From positions 186,001 to 250,000 of the forward strand of contig JACPNZ010000016.1 in the NCBI GenBank assembly GCA_016185245.1: a DNA stretch of 64,000 nt, read 5' to 3'. Of the stretch, positions 1,044-42,401 are shown in pieces; position 1 is the first letter of the stretch, and every line of letters starts with the position of its first letter. This DNA is from Hyphomicrobiales bacterium. Its GTDB lineage: Bacteria; Pseudomonadota; Alphaproteobacteria; Rhizobiales; Aestuariivirgaceae. Under the pieces are notes generated by a model that was given only the letters and a program-made list of their open reading frames with translations, was not told the origin of the DNA and ran no database searches. Both the position numbers and the translations under genes were made by a program.

Positions 1044-1048
1044 GGCAT

Positions 1049-1172
1049 ATAATACCAAACCAATACCAAATGGGAAGAGTTTTGTTAAGAAATTTGCAGA
1101 GAATCTCAATTTTAATAGATTTATCAAATGTTAACATTTTCTTCTGGACAAGTGGTATTAATTTGGTATTGT
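1049..1172. promoter_or_regulatory. Divergent promoter with mirrored pairs of TGGTATT half-sites
   Basis: At 1153-1172 the sequence TGGTATTAATTTGGTATTGT holds two TGGTATT copies 11 bp apart. At 1051-1070 AATACCAAACCAATACCAAA is the same arrangement on the other strand, also with 11 bp spacing. Each block overlaps a plausible -10 box: TATTGT 1167-1172 for murQ (with TGGACA 1145-1150, spacer 16) and TATTAT 1054-1049 on the minus strand for the kinase. Either start would fall at or next to the respective ATG (1180 and 1043). The likely ligand is the GntR protein encoded by the divergent unit. The repeats are seen directly; promoter and operator roles are inferred. Confidence 0.6.
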
Positions 1173-1179
1173 CTAGCCC

Positions 1180-2088: not shown

Positions 2089-2121
2089 AGTGAAGTCCAC
2101 CGGGAGGAAAAGGAGAACCCC

Positions 2122-3378: not shown

Positions 3379-3392
3379 GCTGACAAGTAATC

Positions 3393-3417
3393 ACCTTCCC
3401 CCCTCGTGGGGGAAGGT
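3393..3417 (+). terminator. GC-rich hairpin after the binding-protein gene
   Basis: Arms ACCTTCCCC and GGGGAAGGT form a stem with a short loop, 14 nt after the stop codon. No T-run follows, so rather than a full terminator it may stabilise the upstream message, which would fit the usual excess of binding protein over permeases. Similar hairpins lie at 16900, 42433 and 45136. Confidence 0.45.
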
Positions 3418-3425
3418 CCACCATA

Positions 3426-3490
3426 CCGTCATCCCGGCCAAAGCCGGGATCCATGTTGGGTCTGGACCCCGGCTTGCGTCGGGGTGACGG
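3426..3490. repeat. Palindromic intergenic (REP/RPE-type) element
   Basis: CCGTCATCCCGGC at the left end pairs with GGGGTGACGG at the right end, and inner arms CCCGGC/GCCGGG and ACCCCGG/CGGGGT form sub-stems. This is the common alphaproteobacterial palindrome (GTCATCCCGGCC...GGGGTGACGG) found between genes. Only one copy of this type was recognised in the window. The open frame running through it ahead of the permease is therefore not coding. Confidence 0.65.
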
Positions 3491-3512
3491 GGGGATTTGG
3501 GGGCAGACGCAC

Positions 3513-5290: not shown

Positions 5291-5297
5291 GCCAACC

Positions 5298-26308: not shown

Positions 26309-26317
26309 TCTAATTCC

Positions 26318-27835: not shown

Positions 27836-27844
27836 GCCGTAGGC

Positions 27845-28855
27845 TTAGCAGAAACGCTTGAGCCGCTCATAGAGGGCAGCGTCGATGGACAGGCCCTCCT
27901 TGGCCAGGCGCTTCCGGTTGGCGGTGCGGCGGGAATTGGGAAGCCGGGCGCCCTCCTGCGCGGTGATCGACTTGGCGAGTGCTGTCACCTGCCGATCGAA
28001 AACCGGTCCGGAGAAATGGCCGGGATCGAGCGCCAGGAAGAACTGGCCGCAGCCGATGGGCTTTCCGTCATTGAGGGTGAAGGACCCCATCTGCAACCCG
28101 CGATTGCCGCCCGCCAGGCAAGCGCACATCGCCTCGACAATCAGGCCCTGGCCGAAACCCTTGTGCCCGCCGGCCGGCGCCATCGACCCTTCCAGCCCCT
28201 TGTTGGGGTCGGTGGTGGGCTTCCCCTCGGCATCGAGCGCCCAGCCCAGCGGGATTTCGCGGCCCTCTTCGGCGGCCCGCTTCACCGCCGTCCAGGTAAC
28301 CGCCGAGGACGACTGGTCGATGAGGAAGGCGATCTTGCCGTTCCGGCCCGGCACCGCAAACGACATGGGATTGGTGCCGATCACCTTTCGGCGGCCGCCG
28401 ACCGGCGCGATGTTGGGAGTGGAATTGGTGAATCCGAAGGCGACAAGTCCCTGCCGGGCGAGAAAGCCCGTGTGATAGCCGAGTGTCCCCGCGTTGTAGG
28501 AATTGTGGATGCCCATGCCGGCGACGCCGTGCTTCTTCGCCGCCGGAACGAGTCTCGTGAAGCCTGCCTCGATCGCCGGATGGGCAAACCCGCCGCGGGC
28601 ATCGACCATGAAGGCCGTGGGCGAGGTTTTCTTCACCTGCGGCCTGGCCCGGCCATCGACTTTGCCGCTCTTCACATGCTCGCAATAGAATTGCAGCCAG
28701 AAAAAGCCGTGGCCCGACAGGCCGCTCAGTTCCGTATCGAGAATCGCATCGGTGAAATAACCGGCATTGCGCGGCGCCAATCCCGCACCGGTCAGCACCC
28801 CATGGATCAACTGCCGCGCCGCCTTCGGCGAAAGCCGCATGTCCTGCCCGACCAT
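27845..28855 (-). CDS. Ldh2/malate dehydrogenase-family NAD(P)-dependent oxidoreductase
   Basis: A 336-residue member of the Ldh2 family (malate/L-sulfolactate/ureidoglycolate dehydrogenases and imino-acid reductases such as DpkA). Family features are the early helix SGLSGHGFF with the catalytic His, GIHNSYNAGTLGYH, TPNIAPVGGR and GTNPMSFAVP, and the C-terminal GHKGFGQGLIVEAM. It heads the operon with the MttB homologue and the demethylase-like flavoprotein, which favours a cyclic imino or N-methyl amino acid substrate over malate. GGGAGG lies 7 nt before ATG 28855. Confidence 0.82.
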   Translation of the reverse strand: MVGQDMRLSPKAARQLIHGVLTGAGLAPRNAGYFTDAILDTELSGLSGHGFFWLQFYCEHVKSGKVDGRARPQVKKTSPTAFMVDARGGFAHPAIEAGFTRLVPAAKKHGVAGMGIHNSYNAGTLGYHTGFLARQGLVAFGFTNSTPNIAPVGGRRKVIGTNPMSFAVPGRNGKIAFLIDQSSSAVTWTAVKRAAEEGREIPLGWALDAEGKPTTDPNKGLEGSMAPAGGHKGFGQGLIVEAMCACLAGGNRGLQMGSFTLNDGKPIGCGQFFLALDPGHFSGPVFDRQVTALAKSITAQEGARLPNSRRTANRKRLAKEGLSIDAALYERLKRFC

Positions 28856-28951: not shown

Positions 28952-30268
28952 TCACGCCGGCTTGCGGCGTGCCATCGGATCGGGGAGCAGCGCCAAGATG
29001 TCGACGCGCTGTTCGCCCAGCCGGTGCAGCATGAAGGCGGTGGCGCCAAGCCAGGCGAGGAATGTCACAAATACCGCCAGCCCGGCGCCAATGAGACCAT
29101 AGAGGCCGGTGAACACCAGGCTCGCCAGGATCAGCACGAGAATGCAGCCGGTGCTGATCAGGGCGTTAATCCCCTGCACGCCGCGCAAGGTCATCAGATG
29201 GGAGCTCGGGCCGGCCAGGGCGCGCATCAGCTGGCTACCGATCAGAATGATCAGAACCCAGCGGCCTTCGGCGAACTGCGGACCGAACATCGAGAGAAGT
29301 TCGCGACCGAGAACCACGGCGCCGGCGAGTGCGGCCGCCGTCAGGGCAAACGGCATGGCGATCGAGCGCCACAGCGCCCGGCGCAGCGCCAGGCTGTCGC
29401 CCGCATGGCGGGCATCGGCGATATCGGGCACCGCCATCTGCTGGGCGATCTGCACGAAATAGCCGACCAGCAGGGCGAGCTTCAGGCACAGCCCGAAGAC
29501 CGCGACCTCGGCCGAGGGCAGGAACGGCACGGCCACCAGAATGCCGATGTCGGCGAAGAAATTGGTGAACACCGCCAGCAACACCAGAAGCCAGGCTTCG
29601 CGCCGCCAGCGCCGGGCGATACCGCGCCACCCGGGTCTCCAGATCAATGGCGGCATCCTCACCCGCATCGCCGCGATCACATAGACGGCAATGAGGGCCG
29701 TAGCCCCGGCGAAGAGCGCGGTGGCGACGAAGGCGGTAGGACGAAGGCCCAGCAGGCTTATGCCGGCAATCGCCGAGAAAAACAGGATCGGCCGTCCCAA
29801 CCCCTCCGGCACGTAGCAGATGCCGAAGAAGCGCATGGCGCCGGCGATGTTGGTATAGATATTGATCAGCGCCACTGCCACGACCATGACACCGCCGGCC
29901 ACATAGCTGGACCGTTCGATGGCCGAAAGGCTTGGCCACAGCATGGCGTAGGCGGCGATCAGGACCAGAGCGACGGCGCTGGCGAAGATGGCGTCAAGGG
30001 TCGCCTGCCCGGCAAAGCGGCCGAAGAGTGCGGGCGTCGCCTTGTTGCGGTAGCGGGCGGCAAAGCGCGGAGCGATCTGCGGATAACCCTGAGCCGCCGC
30101 AATGCCTGCGACCGCCGCCAGGCTGGTCGCGGCATAGAAGATGCCGAGCTCACTGGCCCCCAGAACCCGCGCCATTATCAGCTGAGTGAGAAATCCGACA
30201 CCCGCTCCGAGAAACCGCGAGCCCGCAAGTATCCCGGGTCTTGTCGCCAGCTGGCGAAGCTTTTCCAT
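28952..30268 (-). CDS. Polysaccharide/lipid flippase-like membrane protein (Wzx/MOP family)
   Basis: A 438-residue integral membrane protein with about 12 hydrophobic helices and the MOP-superfamily opening GSRFLGAGVGFLTQLIMARVLGASELGIFYAATSL. Relatives move lipid-linked oligosaccharides or lipopeptide-like products across the inner membrane. No glycosyltransferase or polymerase is nearby. It begins 4 nt after the stop of the amino acid:carrier-protein ligase gene, so it looks like the last gene of that unit. Export of the cluster's product is therefore a reasonable inference. Confidence 0.82.
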   Translation of the reverse strand: MEKLRQLATRPGILAGSRFLGAGVGFLTQLIMARVLGASELGIFYAATSLAAVAGIAAAQGYPQIAPRFAARYRNKATPALFGRFAGQATLDAIFASAVALVLIAAYAMLWPSLSAIERSSYVAGGVMVVAVALINIYTNIAGAMRFFGICYVPEGLGRPILFFSAIAGISLLGLRPTAFVATALFAGATALIAVYVIAAMRVRMPPLIWRPGWRGIARRWRREAWLLVLLAVFTNFFADIGILVAVPFLPSAEVAVFGLCLKLALLVGYFVQIAQQMAVPDIADARHAGDSLALRRALWRSIAMPFALTAAALAGAVVLGRELLSMFGPQFAEGRWVLIILIGSQLMRALAGPSSHLMTLRGVQGINALISTGCILVLILASLVFTGLYGLIGAGLAVFVTFLAWLGATAFMLHRLGEQRVDILALLPDPMARRKPA

Positions 30269-30272
30269 GGCA

Positions 30273-31211
30273 CTACATGTTCAGGACCTGGCGTACCGCG
30301 CCTGGCCACCGGCGGAAATCGATCCCGTGAACGGCGAACAGCGCCACCGCCAGACGGTCCATGCCGAAGGCGACGCAGCCCGAATGGGCCGGCTCGCCCG
30401 ACGCGAGCCGCATGTCCCAGGCCAGGCCGAAATGTTCCTTGTGATAGTTGAAACTCATGCAGGCCGTCGGCATTTCGGCCGAGCGCACCGGGATAAGAAG
30501 TTCGAACTTCAGCGCCGCCTGGATTTGGGCAACCGCCATCATCTGCCCGACCCGGCCGAAAAACGGATCGCTCGCCTGCTCCACCGCGAACGGCAGCATC
30601 AGACGGCGGGCCATCTCCTGAGCCTTGGTCATCCAGACTTCACGAAACGCCGAAACCTGCTCGGCCGTGCCGATGCGGACGAATTCCCGCATGCGGAAGG
30701 ACTGGAAGCGGTCGATGTCGGTCGACGGCTCGTGACGGAACACGTCGGCGGCGATGTCGAAGACATAGCCCAGCGCCGGCACGAGGCCCCGCTCTGCGGC
30801 AATCGGATAGACCGGATAACAGGCGGCCGGCGACAACACCAGATCGGCCGAGGTGAGCGACGCCGTCCAGTCGCCGCCCTTTTCGAAGGTCGCAACCGCC
30901 CCGTTGATCTCGGCCTCGCTACCGTGCAGCGCGCAGACACAGCCGAGAAGATTGGGGAAGCTCTTGAGATAGCCGGATTTCTCCAGCTGTTTCCGGCTCA
31001 TCACCGGCGGGAAGCGCAGCACCTCGGCATCCGCATCACGCTCCCGCGAAATCAAGGCGGCGAGCCGCTCGACCGCGGTTTCATAATCCTGGGTGCGGGC
31101 CACCACGCCATCCACACCCATGGAACGAAACAGCGCCCTAGCGATCGTCTTCTCGTCCCGCCGCGCCGAGCCAGGCATGTCGGCCTCGGAAGACTGGAAG
31201 GGAGCGTTCAT
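30273..31211 (-). CDS. Amino acid:[carrier protein] ligase, SerRS-like
   Basis: A 312-residue truncated class II aminoacyl-tRNA-synthetase homologue lacking a tRNA-binding arm. Such enzymes (Bradyrhizobium Bll0957 type) activate a small amino acid, Gly or Ala, with ATP and load it on the phosphopantetheine of a carrier protein instead of tRNA. With ATG 31211 as start, Cys131, Glu176 (in FRMREFVRIG, motif 2) and Cys279 (in HSGCVAFGMDR, motif 3) fall exactly at the zinc-ligand positions I recall for Bll0957. AGAGG lies 5 nt before this ATG; the frame also opens with a TTG at 31235. A carrier-protein gene lies nearby at 32705. Confidence 0.92.
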   Translation of the reverse strand: MNAPFQSSEADMPGSARRDEKTIARALFRSMGVDGVVARTQDYETAVERLAALISRERDADAEVLRFPPVMSRKQLEKSGYLKSFPNLLGCVCALHGSEAEINGAVATFEKGGDWTASLTSADLVLSPAACYPVYPIAAERGLVPALGYVFDIAADVFRHEPSTDIDRFQSFRMREFVRIGTAEQVSAFREVWMTKAQEMARRLMLPFAVEQASDPFFGRVGQMMAVAQIQAALKFELLIPVRSAEMPTACMSFNYHKEHFGLAWDMRLASGEPAHSGCVAFGMDRLAVALFAVHGIDFRRWPGAVRQVLNM

Positions 31212-31252
31212 CGATGCCTCTTGGGGGTTGGACAAGCGCGCCGCACTCTGCC

Positions 31253-32467
31253 TCAGCCGGCGATCGAGTCGGGAACGCCGCTCATCGCCATCATGTTCGC
31301 CATGTTGCCGAGGATGCGGTCGTTGTTGATCATGATCGGCGAGGACAGGACGTCGCGCAGATGACGGCCGATGCTGACATCGCCATCGTTGCGATAGCCG
31401 CCCAGCCCGCAGGTCCGGTAGCAGCTCATGACCGTCTGCAGCGCCAGCTCGGAAGCCTGCACCTTGGTGAGGGTGATCTCCGACTGGTAGTCAAGCGCCG
31501 CCGATTGCGCCTCATCGAGGTGTGCCGCCTCGTAGCGGGCCAGCGATGCGGCGATGAGATTGCGCAACAGCCGCAGCGACGACTTGGCGGCCGTCAGATG
31601 CATGCCGCCCGGCGGCATCTGGCCGCCGGAGCCGCGCATGGCGCGACGCACGAAGAGTTCGGCCTTCTGCACGCCGGCGGCGGCGATGCCGGCCCACACG
31701 CTCGACCACAGGAGATGGGCGACCGGCGTCATGGTGCGCGAATGGATGGCGTTGTAGGGCACCGGCAGTATCTGTTGCGGAACGCCCCTGGCTTTCAGGC
31801 TGAAGCCGCCGCTGCAGGTGCCGCGCATGCCGAGCGCGTCCCAGCCGCCGGTTGCTGTCAGCTGATAATCCTTCTTCAGGAAGACGGCCAGTACCTGGTC
31901 CGAGGCTGCCGCATCGGGCGAACGCCGGGCAGTGGTCACCACCCCGTCGGCCTCCGCCCCATAGGAAATGACCGAGGCATCGCGAAGCAGCGTGATGTGC
32001 TCGCCATCCGTCTCGATCGCCGAAGCGCTCGACCTGACATTTCCGCCGCCCATTCCCTCGGTTGTCGAGGATGCAAACAGCAGTTGCTCGGCGCACAACC
32101 GGCGAAGCACGGCTTCCTGCCAGGGCGAACCCATGCCGTGATTGACGATGCAGGCAACCTTGGTCTGGTGCATGGCGAAAATCATTCCGGTCGAGGCGCA
32201 GCCGCGGCCCAGCGCGTAACAGATCTCGGCGATCTCGCTAACCGTCGCACCCTCGCCGCCGAGGCTTTGCGGAACCATCAAGCCGAGCAGTTGCCCGTCG
32301 CGGATGGCCGCCATGGCTTCAACCGGAAACCGCGCCTTGACATCGACATCATCGGCGTACTTCAGGGCAACGTCGGCCGAGGCGGCAACGCGGGCTCCCA
32401 GGTTTTTTTCCATGGAGTTATGTGGATCCGCCGGTGCGACATCCTTGCCGACAGCGAGATAGTTCAT
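31253..32467 (-). CDS. Acyl-CoA dehydrogenase homologue next to the aa:CP ligase
   Basis: A 404-residue flavoprotein of the acyl-CoA dehydrogenase superfamily. It has the N-terminal helical domain (GLMVPQSLGGEG near residue 70), the middle beta domain (LLFASSTTEGMGGG, WDALGMRGTCSGGF) and the C-terminal four-helix domain with SCYRTCGLGGYRNDGDVSIGRHLRDV. Homologues such as PltE and RedW oxidise an aminoacyl group held on a carrier protein, so action on an aminoacyl-S-carrier is possible here. ATG 32467 follows GAGAGG; the longer frame to 32509 lacks this. It is the first gene of the unit with the ligase and flippase, 41 nt before the ligase. Confidence 0.82.
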   Translation of the reverse strand: MNYLAVGKDVAPADPHNSMEKNLGARVAASADVALKYADDVDVKARFPVEAMAAIRDGQLLGLMVPQSLGGEGATVSEIAEICYALGRGCASTGMIFAMHQTKVACIVNHGMGSPWQEAVLRRLCAEQLLFASSTTEGMGGGNVRSSASAIETDGEHITLLRDASVISYGAEADGVVTTARRSPDAAASDQVLAVFLKKDYQLTATGGWDALGMRGTCSGGFSLKARGVPQQILPVPYNAIHSRTMTPVAHLLWSSVWAGIAAAGVQKAELFVRRAMRGSGGQMPPGGMHLTAAKSSLRLLRNLIAASLARYEAAHLDEAQSAALDYQSEITLTKVQASELALQTVMSCYRTCGLGGYRNDGDVSIGRHLRDVLSSPIMINNDRILGNMANMMAMSGVPDSIAG

Positions 32468-32510
32468 CCGGCCTCTCCCGATTTCCGATCTCTGGCGGGT
32501 TCCGTTCATT

Positions 32511-32630
32511 TCAATTATAGTTGTATCGTCGCATGGTATAGTTAATGGCGGTGATGGGGTTAATAGTTGGCGGTGCGATTTGCCAATTGCGTTGGTTAGA
32601 CAGAAACACCGGTGCTTTTACTATAATTAG
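32511..32630. promoter_or_regulatory. Divergent promoter region between dehydrogenase and carrier-protein genes
   Basis: An AT-rich island in GC-rich DNA. AATTATAGT at 32513-32521 and ACTATAATT at 32620-32628 are a perfect inverted pair; each contains TATAAT on the strand reading outward (minus 32519-32514, plus 32622-32627), so they can be two mirrored -10 boxes. A further TATAGTTA lies at 32537-32544, 21 bp from the first TATAGT. No good -35 boxes are seen. The transcription start from the plus box would give a leader of about 70 nt. Confidence 0.5.
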
Positions 32631-32704
32631 TTGATTTGCGGACATTTATTCGAGTTCAGGTCAAATTGCCGAGAGCAACCAGAGTGAATGAGTTCGAGGA
32701 CCAT

Positions 32705-32998
32705 ATGAACGGGCAATTGACCCTCGCCGCGGCAGCTTCGCCCCAGCCGGCCAACCCGTCGGCCGATGCTGCCCTTGGCCGCATCATGACGGTACTGGCG
32801 GGGTTGAAGCCGCTCTCCGCCAAATTTAACCCTACGGCATATTTAGCCGATGCCGGATTTTCATCGATCGACATGGTGAAGGTCATGCTGGCCATCGAGG
32901 CCGAGTTCGATCTGATGATCCCGCAGCCCGACATCACGCCTGAGAATTTCGGCAGTGCGCGGTCGATCGCCGACATGATGGCCCGCCTGACCGCCTGA
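32705..32998 (+). CDS. Acyl/aminoacyl carrier protein (partner of the SerRS-like ligase)
   Basis: A 97-residue stand-alone carrier protein. The phosphopantetheine site is DAGFSSIDMVKVMLAIEAEF, with Ser54 (second Ser of FSSID) as the attachment residue. ATG 32705 follows CGAGGA by 5 nt; the upstream TTG-started frame at 32636 has no such signal. In characterised cases the SerRS-like ligase is paired with a carrier-protein gene close by, so this is the expected acceptor of the activated amino acid. A low-similarity N-terminal extension of about 20 residues (AAAASPQPANPSAD) precedes the helical core. Confidence 0.88.
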   Translation: MNGQLTLAAAASPQPANPSADAALGRIMTVLAGLKPLSAKFNPTAYLADAGFSSIDMVKVMLAIEAEFDLMIPQPDITPENFGSARSIADMMARLTA

Positions 32999-33012
32999 GA
33001 TCCGGGGCGATC

Positions 33013-33990
33013 CTAGATCTTCGCCATCCAGCTCTTGTACACGGCCACTGCCGACCGTCGCATGCGGTCGGCCAGACCGCGTCGCAAACCGACTGGCGGG
33101 AACGGCTGGGCGATGTCCGGCCGGCGGTCTTTCTCGGCGGCCAGGCGCAGCGCCTGCATGCGCCGCACCGTGCCGGCGTCGAAATAGTTTTCGGGGATTT
33201 CGGGATAGGAGGCGCGGGTGCCCGCAAGAAAGCGCCCGACATCGCGCCGGTACTCCCGCATCAGCGAGTCGGCATCGTATTCCGGATGCCCCTGGAGGAA
33301 GAGAAAGTGGCTGCCCGCGTCCTTGGCGAAGATGTCGACCGTGCCGTCGCCGGCACGGGTGAGGATGCGGTAGTCCTTGTTCACCAGGTCGCCTGCTGCA
33401 AGGTCATTGTGGCGCGAATGGCAGATCGCAAGACGGCCGGGCAGATCGAGGCCCGCCCATCGATTGTCGGCCGGTCTTGAGGTGAAGAGGCCCGAACGCT
33501 TGGCCGGTAGGGGCCGCCTGGCAATGCCGTCGAGATGCAGCACTGCCGCATGGGCCGCAAGACACGACCACAGGGTCGACCTTGTATTGGTCCGAGCCCA
33601 GTCCACCAGGCGGGTGAGTGCCGGCCAGTAGGGTTCGTCGCTGAGAACCGGGGCCTTGGGTTCATTGCCGGTGACGATCAGCGCATCCGTGCCGGCGGCA
33701 TAGAGTTCCTCCACCGGGCGGTAGCGCGCCGCAATCGCCGCCGTTGTGTCGCTGCCGCGTGAAATCTCCGGCAGGTGAAAGAGGCCGATGCGAACCGGCC
33801 TGCCCATCGATTCGACCAGGCCGGTGAACTGGCGCTCGGTGGCGGCAAAGGCCGAATCCGGCATGTTGTTGACCAGCGCCACGGTGATGACGCGGCTTTC
33901 CGCGGCGACCGGCGGCCGGATGCCCAGGGACGGCACCGCCTGTAGCTTGACCGCGCCTCCCAACTTGCTGCCGTCGAAGTGCCTGGACAT
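33013..33990 (-). CDS. Divergent MetA-family homoserine O-acyltransferase
   Basis: A 325-residue protein of the MetA family (glutamine-amidotransferase-like fold). Catalytic Cys143 in WSCLAAHAA and His235/Glu237 in LQGHPEYD lie at almost the same positions as the E. coli triad. The N-terminal ITVALVNNMPDSAFAATERQF departs from the usual ALLNLMP.KIETE, and the acyl-donor loop reads TGNEPKAP rather than TGAP, so acetyl- or succinyl-CoA preference cannot be assigned. It follows the MetY-like gene by 12 nt. The pair would make homocysteine, or a related thiol amino acid, through an O-acylated intermediate. Confidence 0.82.
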   Translation of the reverse strand: MSRHFDGSKLGGAVKLQAVPSLGIRPPVAAESRVITVALVNNMPDSAFAATERQFTGLVESMGRPVRIGLFHLPEISRGSDTTAAIAARYRPVEELYAAGTDALIVTGNEPKAPVLSDEPYWPALTRLVDWARTNTRSTLWSCLAAHAAVLHLDGIARRPLPAKRSGLFTSRPADNRWAGLDLPGRLAICHSRHNDLAAGDLVNKDYRILTRAGDGTVDIFAKDAGSHFLFLQGHPEYDADSLMREYRRDVGRFLAGTRASYPEIPENYFDAGTVRRMQALRLAAEKDRRPDIAQPFPPVGLRRGLADRMRRSAVAVYKSWMAKI

Positions 33991-34002
33991 GGCCTGCCCC
34001 GG

Positions 34003-35307
34003 CTATTCCGCCGCGGCCTTGAGACTGGCGAAGGGGCGGGCTGCGTCGAGCGCCTGGTCGAGATCGGCGATGATGTCGTCGACGTGCTCGATGCCGATGC
34101 TGAGCCGGATCATCTCCGGCGCCACGCCGGCCCGCTTCTGGTCCTCGGCCGACATCTGACGGTGGGTGGTCGACGCCGGGTGGCAGGCCAGCGACTTGGC
34201 GTCGCCGATGTTCACCAGCCGGGTGATCAACTTGAGCGAATCGTAGACCGCCTTGCCGGCCTCAAGCCCGCCCTTGACGCCGAAGGTAAACAGCGACGAG
34301 GCCTTGCCGCCCAGATATTTGCGGGCCAGCCCGTAGTAAGGATCCTCGGGCAGGCCCGCATGGCGCACCCAGTCCACCCGCCGGTCGGCGGCGAGGTGCT
34401 GGGCGACCTTGAGGGCGTTCTCCATATGCCGCTCCATGCGCAGCGCCACGGTTTCAATGCCCTGCAGCAGCAGGAAGGCGCTGAACGGCGACAGTATGGC
34501 GCCGGTATTGCGCTGATAGACACTGCGACAGCGCTCGATGTAGGCGCGTGGCCCGAAACGGTCGACATAGACCATGCCGTGATAGGAGGCGTCAGCCTCG
34601 TTGAACATCGGAAAGCGGCGGGCCTGCTCCTTCCACGGGAAACGGCCGCTGTCGACGATGGCGCCACCCATGGTCGTGCCATGCCCGCCGAGAAACTTGG
34701 TCAGCGAGTGAACCACGACATCGGCACCGTGTTCGATCGGACGCAGCATCACCGGCGTTGCTACCGTATTGTCGACCACCAGCGGCACGCCATGGCTGTG
34801 GGCCACCGCGGCGAGCGCCTGAATATCGCAGATATTGCCGGCCGGGTTGCCGATGCTTTCGCAGAACACGGCGCGCGTCTCGCTATCGATCAGCCTCTCG
34901 ATGTCGCCCGCCTGGTCGCTGGCGGCGAAGCGCGGCATGATGCCTTGCTTGGGAAATATGTGCGAGAACAGCGTGTGCGTCGTGCCGTAGAGCTGCGGCA
35001 CCGAGACGATGTTGCCGCCGCAGTCGGCGAGATTGGCCATGGCATAGTGAAGGGCGGCCTGGCCGCTGGCCACGGCCAACGCCCCCACCCCACCTTCGAG
35101 ACTAGCCAGGCGCCGCTCCAGCACATCGACGGTTGGGTTGGCGATGCGGCTGTAACGATAGCCGTCGGTTTCGAGGTTGAACAGTGCGGCGCCATGGTCG
35201 GCGCTGTCGAAACTGTAGGCAACGGTCTGATAGATCGGGACGGCGACCGCCTTTGTGGTATCTTCGGGCTCGTAGCCCGCGTGGATGGCAATGGTCTCGG
35301 TGCGCAT
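34003..35307 (-). CDS. O-acetylhomoserine/O-succinylhomoserine sulfhydrylase (MetY/MetZ type)
   Basis: A 434-residue PLP enzyme of the Cys/Met metabolism family. The PLP lysine is in VHSLTKFLGGHGTTMGG near residue 210, with the phosphate region ALAVASGQAALHYAM near 78 and VDNTVATP near 180. At this length with the long C-terminal MRLSIGIEHVDDI it resembles O-acetylhomoserine sulfhydrylase, which adds sulfide directly. The N-terminal METIAIHAGYE-like start (MRTETIAIHAGYEPED) is typical. It is transcribed with the MetA-like gene. It may serve primary methionine synthesis or supply a sulfur amino acid to the surrounding cluster. Confidence 0.88.
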   Translation of the reverse strand: MRTETIAIHAGYEPEDTTKAVAVPIYQTVAYSFDSADHGAALFNLETDGYRYSRIANPTVDVLERRLASLEGGVGALAVASGQAALHYAMANLADCGGNIVSVPQLYGTTHTLFSHIFPKQGIMPRFAASDQAGDIERLIDSETRAVFCESIGNPAGNICDIQALAAVAHSHGVPLVVDNTVATPVMLRPIEHGADVVVHSLTKFLGGHGTTMGGAIVDSGRFPWKEQARRFPMFNEADASYHGMVYVDRFGPRAYIERCRSVYQRNTGAILSPFSAFLLLQGIETVALRMERHMENALKVAQHLAADRRVDWVRHAGLPEDPYYGLARKYLGGKASSLFTFGVKGGLEAGKAVYDSLKLITRLVNIGDAKSLACHPASTTHRQMSAEDQKRAGVAPEMIRLSIGIEHVDDIIADLDQALDAARPFASLKAAAE

Positions 35308-35315
35308 CTAAGAGT

Positions 35316-35361
35316 TCCGGCGATCCGCGAGCAGCTTCACCTGTTTACTTCAAGTGCCGGA
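35316..35361 (-). promoter_or_regulatory. Potential structured leader of the MetY-MetA transcript
   Basis: On the minus strand, CACTTG (35356-35351) can pair with CAGGTG (35343-35338) around a 7-nt loop, and TCCGG with CCGGA outside it. This lies just upstream of the MetY-like start. It does not show the conserved sequence of SAM-II riboswitches often found before alphaproteobacterial metA/metZ, so no riboswitch is called. Confidence 0.3.
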
Positions 35362-35394
35362 TTCTACTATGTTTGATACAAATACCAAACATCA

Positions 35395-37272
35395 ATGAAC
35401 GGAGGCGATTTCTTCGCCGAAATCCTTAACGGTTTACCATCCCGAAACGCCGCGGTGGCGACAGCCCCGGCTGCAGCTTCGATTGCCGCCATGACCCTGG
35501 CCCCCCGCAAGGCCTCATTGGCATGGACCGAAGCGCTTGGTGAAATTGCCGGCATCGAGTCCGATCCCCGCCGTACCCTGCCGCAACTGGTTCTAGACCG
35601 GGCGGAAGTAACGCCGGATGCGCCGGCCCTGCTGTCCGACATCGAATGCTTCGACTATGCCAGCCTCGCCCGCCGCATGCTGGCCTACGCCGGCTGGGCC
35701 CGGGCTCAGGGCGTGGGGCCCGGCAGCACCGTCGCACTTCTCATGTCCAACCGGCCCGACTATGTGGCGATCTGGCTCGGCGTCGCGCTGGCCGGCGGAA
35801 TCACCGCATTGCTCAATCCGGCCCTTAGCGGTCAGGCTCTGGCCCACAGCCTCGCCGTGGCCGGACCGCGCGTCATCGTCGCCGACGAGTCGTGCCTGGA
35901 AGCTGTTGCGCAATTACCCGCCGACATCTTGCAGAATATCAACATCTGGCGCCACGGCGATGGTCCCGCGCCCTTGCCGCGCCTTGACGAGGTCATCGCC
36001 GAAATTCTGAGCCGGCCCGGCAAGCCGACGCCCTTCGAACCGGTGACCATCGATGATCTCGCTTTGCTCATTTACACTTCGGGCACCACCGGCCTGCCCA
36101 AAGCGGCGCGCATCGGCCATCGCCGCATCATGAACTGGGCATTGTGGTTCAAGGGCCTGCTCGGCGTGACGGCCGAGGATCGCATCTACGATTGCCTGCC
36201 GCTTTTTCACAGTGTCGGCGGCGTGGTGGCGGTGGGATGCGCACTCGCCGCCGGAGGTTCCGCCGTCATCGCGCCGAAATTTTCGGCCAACCGCTTCTGG
36301 GCCGATGTGGTGCGCTGGGATTGCACCATCTTCCAGTATATCGGCGAACTTTGCCGCTATCTGGTCAATGCGCCCGCTCACCCCCTTGAGCGTTCGCACC
36401 GCCTGCGCATCGCCTGTGGCAATGGCCTCGGTGCCGGTGTGTGGGAAAAGTTCCAGCACCGCTTCGCCATTCCGCAGATCGCCGAGTTCTATGCGGCAAC
36501 CGAAGGCAATGTCTCCTTGTACAATGTCGATGGCGTGCCCGGCGCCATCGGCCGCATCCCGCCCTATCTCCGCCATCGCTTTCCTGTGGCGCTCATCGCA
36601 TTCGATGTCGAGCGGAGCGAACCGGCACGGGGACCGGACGGCCGCTGCCGGCGCGTTGCCACCGGCGAGGTGGGCGAAGCCATCGGCCGCATCGGCGACG
36701 GTGCTGCGGCCTCCGGCCGCTTCGAGGGCTATACCAGCGAAGCCGACTCGCAACGCAAGGTATTGCGCGACGTGTTCGAAGCAGGCGATGCCTGGTTCCG
36801 CACCGGCGACCTGATGCGCTGCGACGCCCGCGGCTTCTATTATTTCGTCGACCGCATCGGCGACACCTATCGCTGGAAGGGCGAGAATGTGGCAACCGCC
36901 GAGGTCGCCGCGATCCTCGCCGAGGCGCCGGGTGTAATGGAAGCTGTGGTCTATGGTGTCGCCGTGCCGGGACACGAAGGCCGCGCCGGCATGGTGCTGA
37001 TTGCGGCGAAGCCGGAATTCGATGCCGCGGCATTCCTCGACCATGCCCGGCGCCATCTGCCGGCCCATGCCGTGCCGGTGTTCATCCGTCTGGCCCGCTC
37101 GATTGCCCTCACCGACACATTCAAATACAAGAAGCAGATGCTGATGGCCGAAGGCTTCGATCCCTCGCTCACCTCCGATCCGCTTCTGGTTCTCGGCCGG
37201 CTGGCCCCATGCTATCGACCCATCGACCGCGACCTCCATCGCCGCATCGCCGCCGCCGAGGTGCGGCTGTGA
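35395..37272 (+). CDS. Acyl-CoA synthetase of the FATP/very-long-chain type
   Basis: A 625-residue adenylate-forming enzyme. AMP-binding motif LIYTSGTTGLPKAARIGHRR lies near residue 223, YAATEGNVSLYNVDG near 367, and RWKGENVATAEVAAIL near 500, a signature of the FATP/VLACS branch; TDTFKYKKQML near the C-terminus holds the catalytic Lys. Expected role: activation of a fatty or other carboxylic acid to the CoA thioester. The start is uncertain: ATG 35395 gives the full frame with no ribosome-binding site, and ATG 35491 is an alternative. The first 30 residues look non-conserved. Confidence 0.85.
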   Translation: MNGGDFFAEILNGLPSRNAAVATAPAAASIAAMTLAPRKASLAWTEALGEIAGIESDPRRTLPQLVLDRAEVTPDAPALLSDIECFDYASLARRMLAYAGWARAQGVGPGSTVALLMSNRPDYVAIWLGVALAGGITALLNPALSGQALAHSLAVAGPRVIVADESCLEAVAQLPADILQNINIWRHGDGPAPLPRLDEVIAEILSRPGKPTPFEPVTIDDLALLIYTSGTTGLPKAARIGHRRIMNWALWFKGLLGVTAEDRIYDCLPLFHSVGGVVAVGCALAAGGSAVIAPKFSANRFWADVVRWDCTIFQYIGELCRYLVNAPAHPLERSHRLRIACGNGLGAGVWEKFQHRFAIPQIAEFYAATEGNVSLYNVDGVPGAIGRIPPYLRHRFPVALIAFDVERSEPARGPDGRCRRVATGEVGEAIGRIGDGAAASGRFEGYTSEADSQRKVLRDVFEAGDAWFRTGDLMRCDARGFYYFVDRIGDTYRWKGENVATAEVAAILAEAPGVMEAVVYGVAVPGHEGRAGMVLIAAKPEFDAAAFLDHARRHLPAHAVPVFIRLARSIALTDTFKYKKQMLMAEGFDPSLTSDPLLVLGRLAPCYRPIDRDLHRRIAAAEVRL

Positions 37273-37331
37273 GCGGCCGGCCGAAATATACTTCCCGGCA
37301 TCTTCAAGCCAATAAATAGCGAGCAGCAACC

Positions 37332-37778
37332 ATGTCGACCAAGCCCGTCGCCTTTGCCGAAACCGCCATCGAGCTGAAGCCATCGCCGATCGAACCATCG
37401 TGGATCATCGAGGGCCAGCCGGTGGCGCGCAACTCGGTCATCGCCAAGAGCGCCGACCGCACCTCGTGCACCATCGTGTGGGACTGCACCGCCGGAAAGT
37501 TCAACTGGATCTACGATATCGACGAGACGGTGCATGTCGTCGAAGGCGCGGTCACCGTCGATGACGGCCACTCGCCGCCGCGCCGGCTCGAACCCGGCAG
37601 TGTCGCCTTCTTTCCAGCCGGCTCGCGGGCCGTCTGGACCGTCGACAAATATGTGCGAAAGGTGGCGTTCTGCCGGACCGTGCCGCCCTTTCCCTTCGGC
37701 CTGGCGGTTGCCGTCTATCATGCCTTGAAGCAGCGCATCTTCTCGCCCAACAAGGGCTCGCTGATGCAGGCCGGCTGA
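37332..37778 (+). CDS. Cupin-domain protein (DUF861-like)
   Basis: A 148-residue single cupin: DIDETVHVVEGAVTVDDG is the first half-motif and LEPGSVAFFPAGSRAVWTV the second, as in the DUF861/ureidoglycine-aminohydrolase-like group. The central metal-binding His/Glu set is only partly present (ETVHVVEG). Such proteins can be small enzymes or ligand sensors. It is 59 nt after the acyl-CoA synthetase and 9 nt before the aminotransferase, so part of the plus-strand unit. Function not assignable. Confidence 0.75.
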   Translation: MSTKPVAFAETAIELKPSPIEPSWIIEGQPVARNSVIAKSADRTSCTIVWDCTAGKFNWIYDIDETVHVVEGAVTVDDGHSPPRRLEPGSVAFFPAGSRAVWTVDKYVRKVAFCRTVPPFPFGLAVAVYHALKQRIFSPNKGSLMQAG

Positions 37779-37787
37779 GACAACGCC

Positions 37788-38669
37788 ATGCCCGCGCTCC
37801 GGCGAGCTGCGAATTTTTCCAGAACCTGGGCCTTCTATGAAGGCCGCTGGCACGAGGGCAATGTCCCGATCATGGGTCCGCGCACCCACGGCGCCTGGCT
37901 CGGCTCGACCCTGTTCGACGGGGCCCGCCGCTTCGAAGGTGTCGCCCCCGATCTCGACCTGCACATGGCGCGCATCAATGCCTCGGCCCGCAGCTTCGGG
38001 CTGAAGCCCATGGTGAGCGATGCCGAGTGGCTGAAGCTCGCCGAGGCGGGAATGGCGAAGTTCGATGTCGCCGTGGCCCTCTATATCCGCCCCATGTATT
38101 GGGCGGAGAACGGTGCCGCGGGCGGCGGCGTCCGCCACGACCCCGACTCGACTTGCTGGTGCCTGTGCCTCTACGAGGCGCCGATGCCGCAGCCCGGAAA
38201 CCTCGCCATCACTCTGTCGCCGTTCCGCCGGCCGAGCCCCGACACCGCCCCGGTCGAAGCCAAGGCCGGCTGCCTCTATCCCAACAATGCCCGGGCGCTG
38301 GCCGAAGCCGAAGAGCGCGGCTTCAACAATTGTCTGGTAACCGACCTCCTCGGCAATGTCGCCGAACTGGGCAATGCCAATGTCTTCATGGCGCGGCAGG
38401 GCGAGGTGTTCACGCCCGTGGCCAACGGCACGTTTCTCGCCGGCATTACCCGGAGACGAGTGATCGCACTGCTGCGCCGGCAGGGCGTGACGGTGCATGA
38501 GGCGTCGCTGCGCTACAATGATTTTGCCGCCGCCGACGAGATCTTCTTGTGCGGCAATTTCTCCAAGCTGATGCCGGTGACCCGCATCGACCGGCGCGAC
38601 CTGCAGCCCGGTCCCTTCTATACCTTGGCCCGCAGGCTCTACTGGGACTTCGCCCACGGGCGGGGCTAG
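37788..38669 (+). CDS. Class IV PLP aminotransferase (BCAT/aminodeoxychorismate-lyase fold)
   Basis: A 293-residue fold-type IV PLP enzyme. The PLP lysine is Lys159 in VEAKAGCLYPNNARAL; further motifs are the Glu in GNVAELGNANVF, TPVANGTFLAGITRRRVI and the C-terminal AADEIFLCGNFSKLMPV. The last motif is close to branched-chain aminotransferases. Either a transamination or an amine-lyase activity is possible. Within this cluster it could aminate an oxo-acyl precursor or make a non-standard amino acid. Its TAG stop overlaps the stop of the convergent gene (CTAG). Confidence 0.85.
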   Translation: MPALRRAANFSRTWAFYEGRWHEGNVPIMGPRTHGAWLGSTLFDGARRFEGVAPDLDLHMARINASARSFGLKPMVSDAEWLKLAEAGMAKFDVAVALYIRPMYWAENGAAGGGVRHDPDSTCWCLCLYEAPMPQPGNLAITLSPFRRPSPDTAPVEAKAGCLYPNNARALAEAEERGFNNCLVTDLLGNVAELGNANVFMARQGEVFTPVANGTFLAGITRRRVIALLRRQGVTVHEASLRYNDFAAADEIFLCGNFSKLMPVTRIDRRDLQPGPFYTLARRLYWDFAHGRG

Positions 38670-39562
38670 ATGCCGAACAGCACGAACTCCGTGTCGGTCA
38701 GATCGCACAGTTTCGGACGATTGGCGCCACGGAAGTAGCGGCGCCCGTGACGCGGCGTATAGACTCCGCGCAAACCGGCAACCGGCCCGTCGCCGTCCAT
38801 GGCGATGAGCGGCAGGCCATGCCACAGCAGGCGGCGGCCCAGCGGCCCGGCGAATTTCACCAGCTCGGCCTGGCTGCGCGCATAGATGGCAAGGGCACAG
38901 GGCGTCCACCACCTGCCGCTGCGGATGCGGAAAGGCTTGAACACGAAAGGATGGGAAGCGCCCTGGTGCTCGGCGACGATCACCGTGCAGCCCAGTTCGG
39001 CATGGCGCGCCAGCATGGCGTGCTCCGGCAGATCGCGGTCACCAAGCCTGTCGAAGGATCGCAGCCGGGCTCCCCGCACCCAGGCCGAGAGGCCGGCGAA
39101 GGCCACGAACAGGCCCGAACTGTAGAGCTTGTAGCCCTGGCTTTCGACCATCGGCCAGGTGTGCGGGGCGGGCGAGACATTGAGATAGGTGACGCTCCTG
39201 TGGCGCAGCGCCACGGACACCAGGAACGGCGCATAGCCGCGAAACTCCGGCTCGACATACCAGCCCGCCACATTGGCGAACAGCGCTTCGCCGGACTCTG
39301 ACCGGCGCCGCGACACGATGAGAATGAGCGCTCCCACCACCCGGTTGCCGGCCGCCAGCAAGTAGCCATAATGCGGCAAGCCTTCCGGCACGCTGCGCTC
39401 GCCCAGGCGGCGCAGGCCCGCCAGCCAGAATTCATTGCTCCTGCCAGGAAAACCTTTCACCAGCAGGGCGGCAATCGCAGCCAGATCGTCGGCCGCAATC
39501 GGCCTGCACTGGATTTTCGGGGATGGTTTCGGGTACACTGCTCTTAACCGTTCTCCTAACAT
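38666..39562 (-). CDS. GNAT-like acetyltransferase-fold protein, function unknown
   Basis: About 298 residues. The N-terminal half resembles a GNAT fold: IAADDLAAIAALLVKGFPGRS, then GYLLAAGNRVVGALILIV and an AGWYVEPEFRGYAPFLVS segment where a GNAT enzyme binds acetyl-CoA (Q/RxxGxG is not perfect here: EFRGYAP). The C-terminal half (about 160-298) has no motif I recognise. It is the only minus-strand gene inside the plus-strand half of the cluster and shares a promoter region with the second carrier protein. ATG 39562 is preferred over TTG 39580, weakly supported by GGAA upstream. Confidence 0.6.
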   Translation of the reverse strand: MLGERLRAVYPKPSPKIQCRPIAADDLAAIAALLVKGFPGRSNEFWLAGLRRLGERSVPEGLPHYGYLLAAGNRVVGALILIVSRRRSESGEALFANVAGWYVEPEFRGYAPFLVSVALRHRSVTYLNVSPAPHTWPMVESQGYKLYSSGLFVAFAGLSAWVRGARLRSFDRLGDRDLPEHAMLARHAELGCTVIVAEHQGASHPFVFKPFRIRSGRWWTPCALAIYARSQAELVKFAGPLGRRLLWHGLPLIAMDGDGPVAGLRGVYTPRHGRRYFRGANRPKLCDLTDTEFVLFGI

Positions 39563-39624
39563 TCTATTCCAATTTTGCAATTAGCAAGCGACACAAGGCA
39601 AGTATAGTGAAGGACGAAGCGGCC

Positions 39625-39879
39625 ATGCCGAAGCGGTTAACCATAATTTCGCATATCGAGCGCGTCGCCGGCGAACAGAAGAAGTCCTTGAAGCCGCTGA
39701 GCGACGACCTGCCGCTCCTCGAAAGCGGCCTCGATTCCCTGTGTTTCGCCATATTGGTGGCGCGCCTCGAGGATGAGTTCGGCTTCGATCCCTTTTCGGT
39801 GTCGGACACCGTCGAGTTTCCGGTGACGCTGGGCGAATTCCTGCGCTGCTACGAGTCAAATGAGAATGTCGCGGCCTGA
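39625..39879 (+). CDS. Second stand-alone acyl carrier protein
   Basis: An 84-residue carrier protein with phosphopantetheine motif LLESGLDSLCFAILVARLEDEFG, Ser38 being the attachment site. ATG 39625 (MPKRLTIISH) was chosen; the longer frame starts with a hydrophobic stretch over the divergent promoter and is not carrier-like. AAGGA lies 11 nt upstream. A TATAGT box at 39603-39608 may be its -10 element. Its last 20 nt overlap the start of the adenylating enzyme gene, a strong sign that the two proteins work as a pair. Confidence 0.85.
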   Translation: MPKRLTIISHIERVAGEQKKSLKPLSDDLPLLESGLDSLCFAILVARLEDEFGFDPFSVSDTVEFPVTLGEFLRCYESNENVAA

Positions 39880-41257
39880 CAGCCGCTCGCTCCGCCAGGC
39901 GCTGGCAGACGCCGGCAGCCTGGAGGGACGGTTCTTGCTTGGCGGCGATAGGCCGATTCCCCTTGCCGCGATGCTGGCGGGCTCCGCCACCGACGGGCGC
40001 CACTCCGATCTCACCGGCCGCTCGGTTCTCCTTGCCACCTCCGATCAGCTTACTGCGGCACTGGCTCTGGTCGAGTTTGACGGGCTGGCCCGCCGCATCG
40101 TTATCTGCCCACCCGATCTGAAGTCCGAAAACCTCGCAAGTATCATCCGCGATGCCGGGGTCGAGGCCATCGTCTGTAGTGTGGCCGAAATCTACCGGAG
40201 CCTGGGCATTGCAACCATCGTCGAAGTGACGGTTCCCCCGCGCAGCGCCCCGCCACCGGTGGCACCGCAATTCGAGACCGAGTGGTTGATGCTGACGTCG
40301 GGAACGACCGGCGATCCCAAGATCGCGGTGCACACGCTCGGCGCCCTGACCGGCGCCATCAAGCCGACCCCGGCGGGCGCCGAACCGCCCGTGTGGGCCA
40401 CCTTCTACGATATCCGCCGCTATGGCGGGTTGCAGATATACCTCCGCGCCATGCTCGGCACCGGCAGCCTCGTCCTGTCGCGCCCCGACGAGCCCGTCGC
40501 CGATCATCTGCGCCGGCTGGCGGCCTGCGGTGTCACCCATCTCACCGGCACGCCGACCCACTGGCGCCGCGCCCTGCTCAACAGTGCGGCAACCGAGATC
40601 AAGCCGCGCTACATCCGCCTTTCCGGCGAGATCGCCGACCAGGCGGTGCTCGATGCGCTGAAGGCCGCCTATCCCGGCACCCCCATCGGCCATGCCTATG
40701 CCTCGACCGAGGCCGGCGTCGGCTTCGAGGTGACCGACGGGCTCGAAGGATTTCCGGCAAGCTTCCTCGACGGCGGTCTTGCCGAGGTGGAGATGAAGAT
40801 CGTCGACGGCTCCCTCAGGCTGCGCTCGGCCCGCATGGCGACTGGCTATGCCGGCCGTCCCGATCTGGCGCTCATCGGTCCCGGCGGCTTCATCGACAGT
40901 GGCGACATGGTGGAGCGGCGGGGCGAGCGCTGCTATTTCGCCGGCCGCCGCGATGGCGTCATCAATGTCGGCGGCCTCAAGGTCCATCCCGAGGAGATCG
41001 AGGCTCTGATCAACCGCCATGGCGAGGTGCGCATGTCGCGCGTCAAGTCGCGCAAGAGCCCGATCATCGGGGCCGTGGTGGTGGCCGATGTGGTGTTGGC
41101 AGATGGCCTCACGCCGGCCGACAAGGAGCGGATCAGGGCCGAGCTCCTGGAGCTCTGCCAGCGCCAGCTTGCCGCCCACAAGATACCGGCCGTCTTCACC
41201 TTCAAGCCGGGGATCGAGGCAACCCCCGGCGGAAAGCTGTCGCGGCACAATGCGTAA
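39860..41257 (+). CDS. AMP-dependent acyl ligase paired with the second carrier protein
   Basis: A 465-residue ANL-superfamily enzyme, shorter than usual at the N-terminus. Core motifs are LMLTSGTTGDPKIAVHT near 145, YASTEAGVGFE near 279, DSGDMVERRGERCYFAGRRDGVINVGGLKVHPEEIEAL-type hinge region near 350-385 and the C-terminal ATPGGKLSRHN with the adenylation Lys. It should activate a carboxylic acid and transfer it to CoA or, given the 20-nt gene overlap, to the carrier protein encoded immediately upstream. ATG 39866 is an alternative start. It overlaps the SDR gene by 8 nt. Confidence 0.85.
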   Translation: MRMSRPDSRSLRQALADAGSLEGRFLLGGDRPIPLAAMLAGSATDGRHSDLTGRSVLLATSDQLTAALALVEFDGLARRIVICPPDLKSENLASIIRDAGVEAIVCSVAEIYRSLGIATIVEVTVPPRSAPPPVAPQFETEWLMLTSGTTGDPKIAVHTLGALTGAIKPTPAGAEPPVWATFYDIRRYGGLQIYLRAMLGTGSLVLSRPDEPVADHLRRLAACGVTHLTGTPTHWRRALLNSAATEIKPRYIRLSGEIADQAVLDALKAAYPGTPIGHAYASTEAGVGFEVTDGLEGFPASFLDGGLAEVEMKIVDGSLRLRSARMATGYAGRPDLALIGPGGFIDSGDMVERRGERCYFAGRRDGVINVGGLKVHPEEIEALINRHGEVRMSRVKSRKSPIIGAVVVADVVLADGLTPADKERIRAELLELCQRQLAAHKIPAVFTFKPGIEATPGGKLSRHNA

Positions 41258-41975
41258 CGTGATCGTCACCGGCGGCAGCCGCGGGCTGGGCCTGGCCATC
41301 GTCGAGCGCCTGTCGGCGGCGGGCTTCCGAGTGATCGCCATCGCCCGGCGCGACAGCCAGGAGCTTGCGAAACTGCGGGCGGCGATGGCGCCGGGCGCGA
41401 TTGCGTCCGTGGCTTTCGATCTCGGCGATATCGACGGGCTGGCCTCGCTGGTGAAGGACATCCGCAAGACCCATGGGGCCATCTATGGGCTCGTTAACAA
41501 TGCCGGCATCGGCACCGAGGGATTGCTCTCCGCCATGCCACTCCGCGACATCGAGCAGCTGCTAAGGCTCAACACGCTCTCGCCCATCGTGTTGACGCGC
41601 CAGGTGGTGCGCTCGATGATGGCGGCGGGCGAAGGCCGCATCGTCAACCTGTCGTCGATCGCCGCTTCGACCGGCTATTCGGCCCTCTCGGTCTATGCCG
41701 CGACCAAGGCCTCGATAGTGGGCTTCACCCGGTCGCTGGCCCGCGAACTGGGCCGCGCCGGCATCACTGTCAATGCCGTCGCTCCGGGCTTCATCGACAC
41801 GGCGATGACCGAGGGGCTCACGAACGAAGGCCGCGACAAGATCGCTCGCCGCAGCGCGCTCCAGCGCCTGGCGGAGCCTGCCGACGTTGCCCGCACGGTC
41901 GAATTCCTGTTGGGCGAAGGCGGCCGCAACATCACCGGAACGGTCATTACCGTCGATGCCGGCAACACCGCCTGA
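41250..41975 (+). CDS. Short-chain dehydrogenase/reductase (3-oxoacyl-ACP reductase type)
   Basis: A 241-residue Rossmann-fold reductase with cofactor loop TGGSRGLGLA near residue 7, NNAG near 83, catalytic Ser in NLSSIAAS, YAATK (Tyr-x3-Lys) near 147 and the PGFIDTAMTEG loop. It has the FabG-like layout, so reduction of a carrier-bound oxo group or its reverse is plausible. ATG 41250 overlaps the end of the ligase gene by 8 nt and gives the correct N-terminus (MRNVIVTGG). Confidence 0.9.
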   Translation: MRNVIVTGGSRGLGLAIVERLSAAGFRVIAIARRDSQELAKLRAAMAPGAIASVAFDLGDIDGLASLVKDIRKTHGAIYGLVNNAGIGTEGLLSAMPLRDIEQLLRLNTLSPIVLTRQVVRSMMAAGEGRIVNLSSIAASTGYSALSVYAATKASIVGFTRSLARELGRAGITVNAVAPGFIDTAMTEGLTNEGRDKIARRSALQRLAEPADVARTVEFLLGEGGRNITGTVITVDAGNTA

Positions 41976-41993
41976 ACGACGAAAGGACAAGCC

Positions 41994-42401
41994 ATGGCCA
42001 CCGTGAAACTGTGGAGCGATGCCGAGGTCGCGGCCTCGCCTCGCGTCAAGGCGGTTTTCGACGATATCCGTGCCCTGCGAAACTCCGATTTCGTCAACAA
42101 TTTCTGGCGGGGGCTGGCCAACGATGCCCCACTCCTCGAGCGCACCTGGGCCAGCCTCAAGATCGTCATGGTCAAGGACGGAGCACTCGATCCCCTGACC
42201 AAGGAGCTCATTTACATCGCGGTCTCGACCGCCAATGCCTGCAGCTATTGCGTCCACTCGCACACCGCCGCGGCAAAGGCCAAGGGCATGAGCGAGGCGC
42301 AGCACGGCGAATTGCTGGCGGTCGTCGGCATGGCGATGCAGACCAACGGCCTGGTCACCGCCATGCAGATCCCGGTCGACAAGGAGTTCCTGGTTTGGTG
42401 A
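41994..42401 (+). CDS. AhpD-like/carboxymuconolactone-decarboxylase-family protein
   Basis: A 135-residue helical protein with the redox motif NACSYCVHSHTAAAKAKG (CxxC-x2-H) near residues 81-98, as in AhpD-type peroxidase partners. Family members act as alkylhydroperoxidases, thiol carriers or decarboxylases. It is 18 nt after the SDR gene and ends the plus-strand unit, followed by a hairpin. A link to the cluster's chemistry is by position only. Confidence 0.82.
   Translation: MATVKLWSDAEVAASPRVKAVFDDIRALRNSDFVNNFWRGLANDAPLLERTWASLKIVMVKDGALDPLTKELIYIAVSTANACSYCVHSHTAAAKAKGMSEAQHGELLAVVGMAMQTNGLVTAMQIPVDKEFLVW

Follow-up and report, generated by a model that had tools for sequence, protein, structure and literature searches.

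Amino acid:carrier protein (aa:CP) ligases, which resemble seryl-tRNA synthetases, were described in 2010 through their structures and their activity in vitro, and a 2022 review (PMC9437257) gives their biological role as "unknown", in agreement with the preliminary description of the DNA treated here, which had called that role unsettled. We have analysed a 64,000-nucleotide stretch from a Hyphomicrobiales bacterium (positions 186,001 to 250,000 of contig JACPNZ010000016.1, assembly GCA_016185245.1; hereafter the window, whose own numbering is used throughout) that carries such a ligase gene in a cluster at 28952-42401. The closest described system is that of aa:CP ligase 1 of Bradyrhizobium, in which the ligase Bll0957 is accompanied by the flavoprotein Bll0958 and by Bsr0959, which we take to be its partner carrier protein (CP). 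The CP, flavoenzyme and ligase genes of the window stand in the same order as in Bradyrhizobium-like genomes (our label for eight genomes of one genus with ligases 94-96% identical to Bll0957), but the window joins these three genes to two further groups of genes. In a phaR mutant of B. diazoefficiens the transcripts of bll0957 and of bll0958 each rise 3.0-fold and the protein levels are higher, according to PMC10888616; bll1105 (metZ) and bll7459 (aminotransferase) in the same table could not be mapped to the families discussed here and were not counted.

A second kind of ligase cluster, which we call DUF1839-type, comprises an acyl carrier protein (ACP), a member of the acyl-CoA dehydrogenase family, the ligase, a DUF1839 protein and a GH2 protein, and is found on Rhizobium, Azospirillum and Mycetohabitans plasmids (L107-L109). 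In two papers the DUF1839 protein is predicted to be an amide ligase for a surface sugar (PMC2922099) and DUF1839 is included in the papain-like fold (PMC10318531). CP, flavoenzyme and ligase are common to both kinds of cluster, whereas the DUF1839-type ligases form a separate clade and have DUF1839 and GH2 genes in place of the GNAT-like gene of the window. Our tree of 39 ligases, alone among our gene trees in having support values, divides 29 sequences of the window type from 10 of the other type with support 100/100; the latter have annotated DUF1839 and GH2 neighbours on three plasmids and a Pfam-confirmed DUF1839 gene in five more loci, and two rows labelled as this type (G191 and G376) have no DUF1839 gene confirmed beside them. 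The window ligase gene lies between those of a flippase and the flavoenzyme, with no DUF1839 gene adjacent. One window-type ligase (L020, 864-1706) comes from a metagenome-assembled genome (MAG) labelled Acidimicrobiaceae and groups with proteobacterial MAGs, which may reflect transfer or mis-binning. The literature searched does not describe the gene set of the window, its two further gene groups as partners of the ligase, or their co-inheritance.

Co-inheritance of unlinked gene blocks

We divide the cluster into block A (CP1, flavoenzyme and aa:CP ligase), block B (a FATP-like acyl-CoA synthetase, CP2, a stand-alone AMP-forming ligase, or AMP-ligase, and a short-chain dehydrogenase/reductase, or SDR) and block C (MetY, a MetA variant and an aminotransferase), with the GNAT-like protein as an extra outside the three. 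These blocks and the GNAT-like gene co-occur and have a common history, also in genomes where long distances separate them, and we are confident that together they are one system. Thirteen of the fourteen genes recur in relatives, and the grouping is more than chance, as the set is seen in several bacterial families. In G034, G027, G051 and G715 nearly the whole set occupies one stretch in rearranged order, and a locus of the SZAS-89 MAG holds CP2, AMP-ligase, SDR, FATP, MetY, CP1, MetA, flavoenzyme and ligase. Elsewhere the set is dispersed. CP1, flavoenzyme, ligase and GNAT-like genes stand together in all eight Bradyrhizobium-like genomes, FATP, CP2, AMP-ligase and SDR genes at a second locus in all five examined there, and MetY and MetA genes at a third in all four examined there; the ligase, the AMP-ligase and the MetA variant are at three separate loci in all eight. 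The single-contig genome G421 has its three loci at about 0.60, 1.32 and 2.02 Mb, the single-contig genome G663 likewise has three unlinked loci, and in G521 a block of MetY, MetA, FATP and aminotransferase genes is 4.6 Mb away from the other genes on the contig. The GNAT-like gene adjoins either block A or block B in relatives.

For co-occurrence we used a sample of 397 genomes from the order. Matches to the GNAT-like protein at E<=0.001 occur in 43 of these, 25 at E<=1e-39 and 18 from 4e-33 to 7e-4, where the cut-off of 1e-39 was picked post hoc at a gap visible in the match list. The AMP-ligase (E<=1e-60) occurs in 26 genomes, namely the same 25 and G706 (6.6e-75), and the 23 genomes with the MetA variant (E<=1e-40) are all among the 25. 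The window-type ligase is present in 23 of these 25 system genomes (G665 has the other type and G600 has none), and the same 23 have aminotransferase relatives of 60-72%. For GNAT-like protein with AMP-ligase, Fisher's test gives p ~9e-39 by genome, a value too small given the relatedness of the genomes, and ~2e-13 by genus; the other genus-level test gave p ~2e-10. A class-wide sample of 385 genomes yielded ten ligase matches at E<=1e-50, four of them of the window type (61-100% identity); the AMP-ligase accompanies all four and is absent from all five genomes tested among the six others, which further sets apart the DUF1839-type clusters. Only 3 of 37 same-genus genomes have a window-type ligase, so its presence varies within the genus.

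The nine gene trees (ligase, flavoenzyme, MetA, MetY, FATP, GNAT, AMP-ligase, SDR and aminotransferase; built with FastTree, without support values, and leaving out DUF1839-type rows and four short MAG loci) all place G027, from the window's genus, nearest to G487 and G521 of family f200, and G000 nearest to G034. The simplest reading of these trees is that the whole set was transferred between families. The preliminary description had proposed a single system for biosynthesis, centred on an aa:CP ligase with two free CPs, which the co-occurrence and the nine trees bear out. It had named independent occurrence of the blocks in relatives as a result that would speak against this; in location they do occur independently, at three loci in Bradyrhizobium-like genomes, but in inheritance they do not, since they co-occur and their trees agree.

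Predicted functions of the cluster genes

The ligase of block A (30273-31235, minus strand) scores 447.9 bits against PRK07080 (amino acid--[acyl-carrier-protein] ligase; cut-off 357), and its nearest solved relative is Bll0957, with 69% identity over 289 residues; it would load glycine or alanine on CP1. CP1 (32684-32998, start possibly 32705, plus strand) and CP2 of block B (39607-39879, start possibly 39622, plus strand) reach 22.0 and 26.6 against the PP-binding model PF00550 (cut-off 20.8), and an alignment of 21 CP1 and CP2 sequences shows no exception to the serine for phosphopantetheine attachment; the closest NCBIfam model to CP1 is PRK07081, with a score below its cut-off. The flavoenzyme (31253-32509, minus strand) belongs to the acyl-CoA dehydrogenase superfamily, in which the catalytic glutamate sits in a C-terminal YEGT-like base motif. 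None of 25 aligned flavoenzyme sequences has a glutamate at this site, where residues of MI-N/H-NDR type stand instead, and inspection by eye found none at the isovaleryl-type alternative site. A true acyl-CoA dehydrogenase function was rejected because of the missing base-site glutamate. The profile matches are led by dehydrogenases, followed by nitrososynthases, DszC and related oxygenases. The flavoenzyme shares with carrier-protein amino-acid dehydrogenases and oxygenases (RedW/PigA, the nitrososynthases and DszC) the acyl-CoA dehydrogenase fold and a presumed action on or near amino groups, but it reaches no named equivalog model and lacks the base-site glutamate. A PF01613 flavin reductase gene directly follows MetA in G715, G051, G521 and G487 and belongs to the wider cluster of G608 and of G681; the window cluster has none. 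The missing base glutamate and the flavin reductases of these six relatives lead us to prefer, though this is not proof, an enzyme that probably oxygenates or oxidises aminoacyl-CP1 rather than dehydrogenating.

The FATP-like long-chain acyl-CoA synthetase (35395-37272, plus strand) scores 701.4 bits against PRK08279, above the cut-off of 625, and is placed in block B by the Bradyrhizobium-like genomes, where it adjoins CP2, AMP-ligase and SDR. The AMP-ligase (39860-41257, plus strand; PF00501/PF13193) keeps the P-loop-like TSGT and C-terminal GKL motifs in aligned relatives and probably loads an acid onto CP2; it matched no solved structure at E<=1e-15. The FabG-like SDR (41250-41975, plus strand; PF13561), whose gene follows that of the AMP-ligase in relatives, scores 204.5 bits against TIGR01830, below the cut-off, and may serve to reduce a CP2-bound keto group or one on the product of CP2.

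In block C, the MetA variant (33013-33990, minus strand) passes PF04204 (homoserine O-succinyltransferase) and falls just under the cut-off of its closest NCBIfam model (348.7 bits of 358); Cys143, His235 and Glu237 are invariant in 15 of 15 sequences. The MetY-like pyridoxal phosphate (PLP) enzyme (34003-35307, minus strand; PF01053; TIGR01326, 594 bits) is encoded next to it in the relatives examined and is predicted to carry out a gamma-replacement on an O-acylhomoserine. The pair shares its families with the methionine MetA and MetY, including the catalytic cysteine, histidine and glutamate, but the MetA variant is under the NCBIfam cut-off, is not the sole copy and occurs only with the system in the 397 genomes. 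The genome of the window has a second MetA (30%) and a second MetY (49%) elsewhere, so the description of these as sulfur genes, sound as to family, need not mean a role in sulfur or methionine metabolism. We rejected a housekeeping methionine role in view of these other copies and the confinement of the MetA variant to system genomes. We also considered the rhizobitoxine (rtx) genes of Bradyrhizobium elkanii, a biosynthetic set that likewise includes a PLP enzyme of the O-acylhomoserine type; as the 14 proteins of the cluster include neither an RtxA-type fusion nor a desaturase, a rhizobitoxine-like set was rejected. The class IV aminotransferase (37788-38669, plus strand) scores 452.6 bits against PRK13356 (cut-off 262) and has a paralogue (~53%) at another place in the genome. 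Further genes in relatives encode a thiamine-dependent enzyme (12 loci), a hormone-sensitive-lipase-like esterase (9 loci) and a PLP decarboxylase beside MetY (three MAG loci), which suggests further processing of the MetY product at the carboxyl end.

The GNAT-like protein (38666-39580, start possibly 39538, minus strand) has no Pfam match of its own, although 4 of 23 aligned members show weak Acetyltransf_1 matches, and sequence and profile searches of solved structures (PDB) gave no match. A single-sequence structure model was poor (predicted local distance difference test score, pLDDT, 39); its N-terminal elements follow a GNAT-like order. The protein is a candidate for moving a CP-bound group to an acceptor. 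The Wzx/MOP-type flippase (28952-30268, minus strand) bears a remote likeness only to its families, at 23.5 of 28.2 for PF01943 (Polysacc_synt) and 33.6 of 300 for WZX_like, and is a candidate exporter of a lipid-linked or small product; its lineage lies beside the cluster in G034, G027, G487 and G521 only, five genomes with the window's. A Cupin_3 protein (37332-37778, plus strand; PF05899), present in a minority of relatives, appears to be accessory.

The preliminary description listed fourteen adjacent genes, and all fourteen open reading frames are found where it placed them. A codon-usage gene caller recovered all 14, some with an alternative start, a result that is partly circular as 11 had been used to train it. 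The family assignments of the preliminary description are matched by Pfam and NCBIfam, some with scores below curated cut-offs; the GNAT-like protein is the one without a family match. The Pfam scans took in 37 proteins of the window, which has ~58 genes, and found no condensation or ketosynthase module among them, in keeping with the claim that nonribosomal peptide synthetase (NRPS) and polyketide synthase (PKS) modules are absent. Membership of the fourteenth gene did not hold up: this CMD/AhpD-family gene stands beside no other cluster among the relatives' loci compared. It was rejected as a member together with the MTTB, Ldh2 and Gfo/Idh genes; the MTTB and Gfo/Idh genes also do not follow the cluster in relatives. 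The cluster is adjoined at 24341-28855 by consecutive genes for an MTTB-family methyltransferase, an old yellow enzyme-type NADH:flavin oxidoreductase and an Ldh2 dehydrogenase, by appearance a separate catabolic set; a relative of the Ldh2 gene (44% to 27845-28855) lies with an enolase-superfamily gene inside the G487 and G521 clusters (L077 14291-15289; L078/L079). A set of genes at 159-6365 (families F54-F58), with apparent ABC transporter parts among them, recurs next to the cluster of the same-genus G027 (L027/L028), and one protein at 19314-21047 combines RTX calcium-binding repeats with a serralysin-type C-terminal domain.

A putative carrier-protein pathway and its acceptor

Several relatives carry the cluster among polysaccharide genes. 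Polysaccharide lyase, flippase, glycosyltransferase and GINT1_N genes adjoin it in G051, with related genes in G715; a glycosyltransferase and a GINT1_N gene are near it in G681 and a glycosyltransferase in G608; and a polysaccharide deacetylase gene lies immediately 3' of MetA in all four Bradyrhizobium-like C loci examined. GNAT relatives outside the system keep similar company: on Shinella plasmids they directly precede a GINT1_N-type or similar protein (L105 14028-16393; L106 13971-16348), with glycosyltransferase and lipopolysaccharide genes nearby, and on a Methylocystis plasmid they lie among polysaccharide genes. A surface glycan bearing an N-acyl group would be consistent with a deacetylase to expose an amine and a GNAT-like enzyme to occupy it, and the rarity of the flippase lineage (five genomes), with several clusters among polysaccharide genes, makes us lean towards such a glycan.

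We propose, with somewhat less than even confidence, one pathway in which blocks A, B and C, inherited as a unit, put an unusual acyl group on a lipid-linked or polymerised surface glycan. The aa:CP ligase would put glycine (or alanine) on CP1, where the flavoenzyme would oxygenate or oxidise it. MetA would acylate homoserine and MetY would then replace the acyl group by a different nucleophile. From the resulting four-carbon amino acid the aminotransferase, with the thiamine-dependent enzyme in relatives, could form an oxo acid. The AMP-ligase would put an acid on CP2 for reduction by the SDR, and the FATP-like ligase may supply or prime an acyl-CoA. Finally, the GNAT-like enzyme would move the finished group from a CP to an amine or hydroxyl of the acceptor, most likely the glycan, which the Wzx-like flippase would flip across the membrane. 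That an oxygenated aminoacyl unit ends up on a glycan or lipid-linked acceptor we likewise regard as tentative, a little short of an even chance.

A number of observations weigh against this proposal. No glycosyltransferase is found among the 37 window proteins scanned, the nearest thing to a sugar gene beyond uptake and catabolism being a DegT-type aminotransferase (48803-50089), and no glycan neighbours were recognised at the Bradyrhizobium-like A and B blocks. The flippase is below curated cut-offs and confined to five genomes, and the best profile matches of the flavoenzyme are still dehydrogenases. As to the unity of the system, the 18 genomes with weaker GNAT matches all lack the AMP-ligase and the cut-off that separates them is post hoc; G600 and G665 have block B and the GNAT-like gene without the MetA variant, the window-type ligase or the 60-72% aminotransferase (in G665 a DUF1839-type ligase and block B lie at different places); and the SZAS-89 locus has no GNAT or aminotransferase gene, its sequence ending 310 bases from CP2. 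The contrary view, that there is no single pathway and that sulfur genes of housekeeping type simply lie next to an aa:CP ligase block and a fatty-acid block, would agree with the unlinked blocks of Bradyrhizobium-like and other genomes and with G600 and G665, which lack A and C; but the unlinked blocks co-occur genome-wide, the genome has second MetA and MetY copies and nine genes share one cross-family relation, and we consider this explanation very improbable.

Two other explanations keep a single pathway and change its product. A diffusible small metabolite (a hydroxamate, an amide or an unusual amino acid) that leaves the cell through the flippase, the kind of product proposed in the preliminary description, would suit the free CPs, AMP-ligases, flavoenzyme, aminotransferase, MetA/MetY and exporter of a window whose scanned proteins include no polymerase or glycosyltransferase, and the PLP decarboxylase beside MetY in three MAG loci hints that MetY may yield a free amino acid, which is decarboxylated there. 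The polysaccharide genes that adjoin the cluster in several relatives argue the other way, as does the limited spread of the flippase lineage, and we judge such a metabolite rather unlikely, if by no means far-fetched. A membrane lipid, for which the FATP-like enzyme would activate a long-chain acid and the GNAT-like enzyme make an N- or O-acyl aminoacyl lipid, seems to us unlikely. The FATP-like enzyme, above its curated cut-off and encoded directly before CP2 in Bradyrhizobium-like B loci, and the esterase of nine loci also fit a lipid; but no lipid-specific gene, such as a serine palmitoyltransferase-like one, occurs among the proteins scanned, and the neighbours in relatives are glycan genes.

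The co-inheritance described above supplies partner genes for a ligase that has been examined in vitro; most of these are unlinked in Bradyrhizobium, so that an analysis of the ligase's neighbourhood alone would miss them. We suggest, as a distinctly tentative proposal, that the system may represent a novel class of modular pathways that use carrier proteins without recourse to NRPS or PKS. In it a ligase derived from an aminoacyl-tRNA synthetase and a stand-alone AMP-ligase would feed two CPs and a GNAT-like enzyme would join their products onto a cell-surface acceptor; the pathway would give the Bradyrhizobium aa:CP ligase its physiological context, and may make a chemically new decoration.

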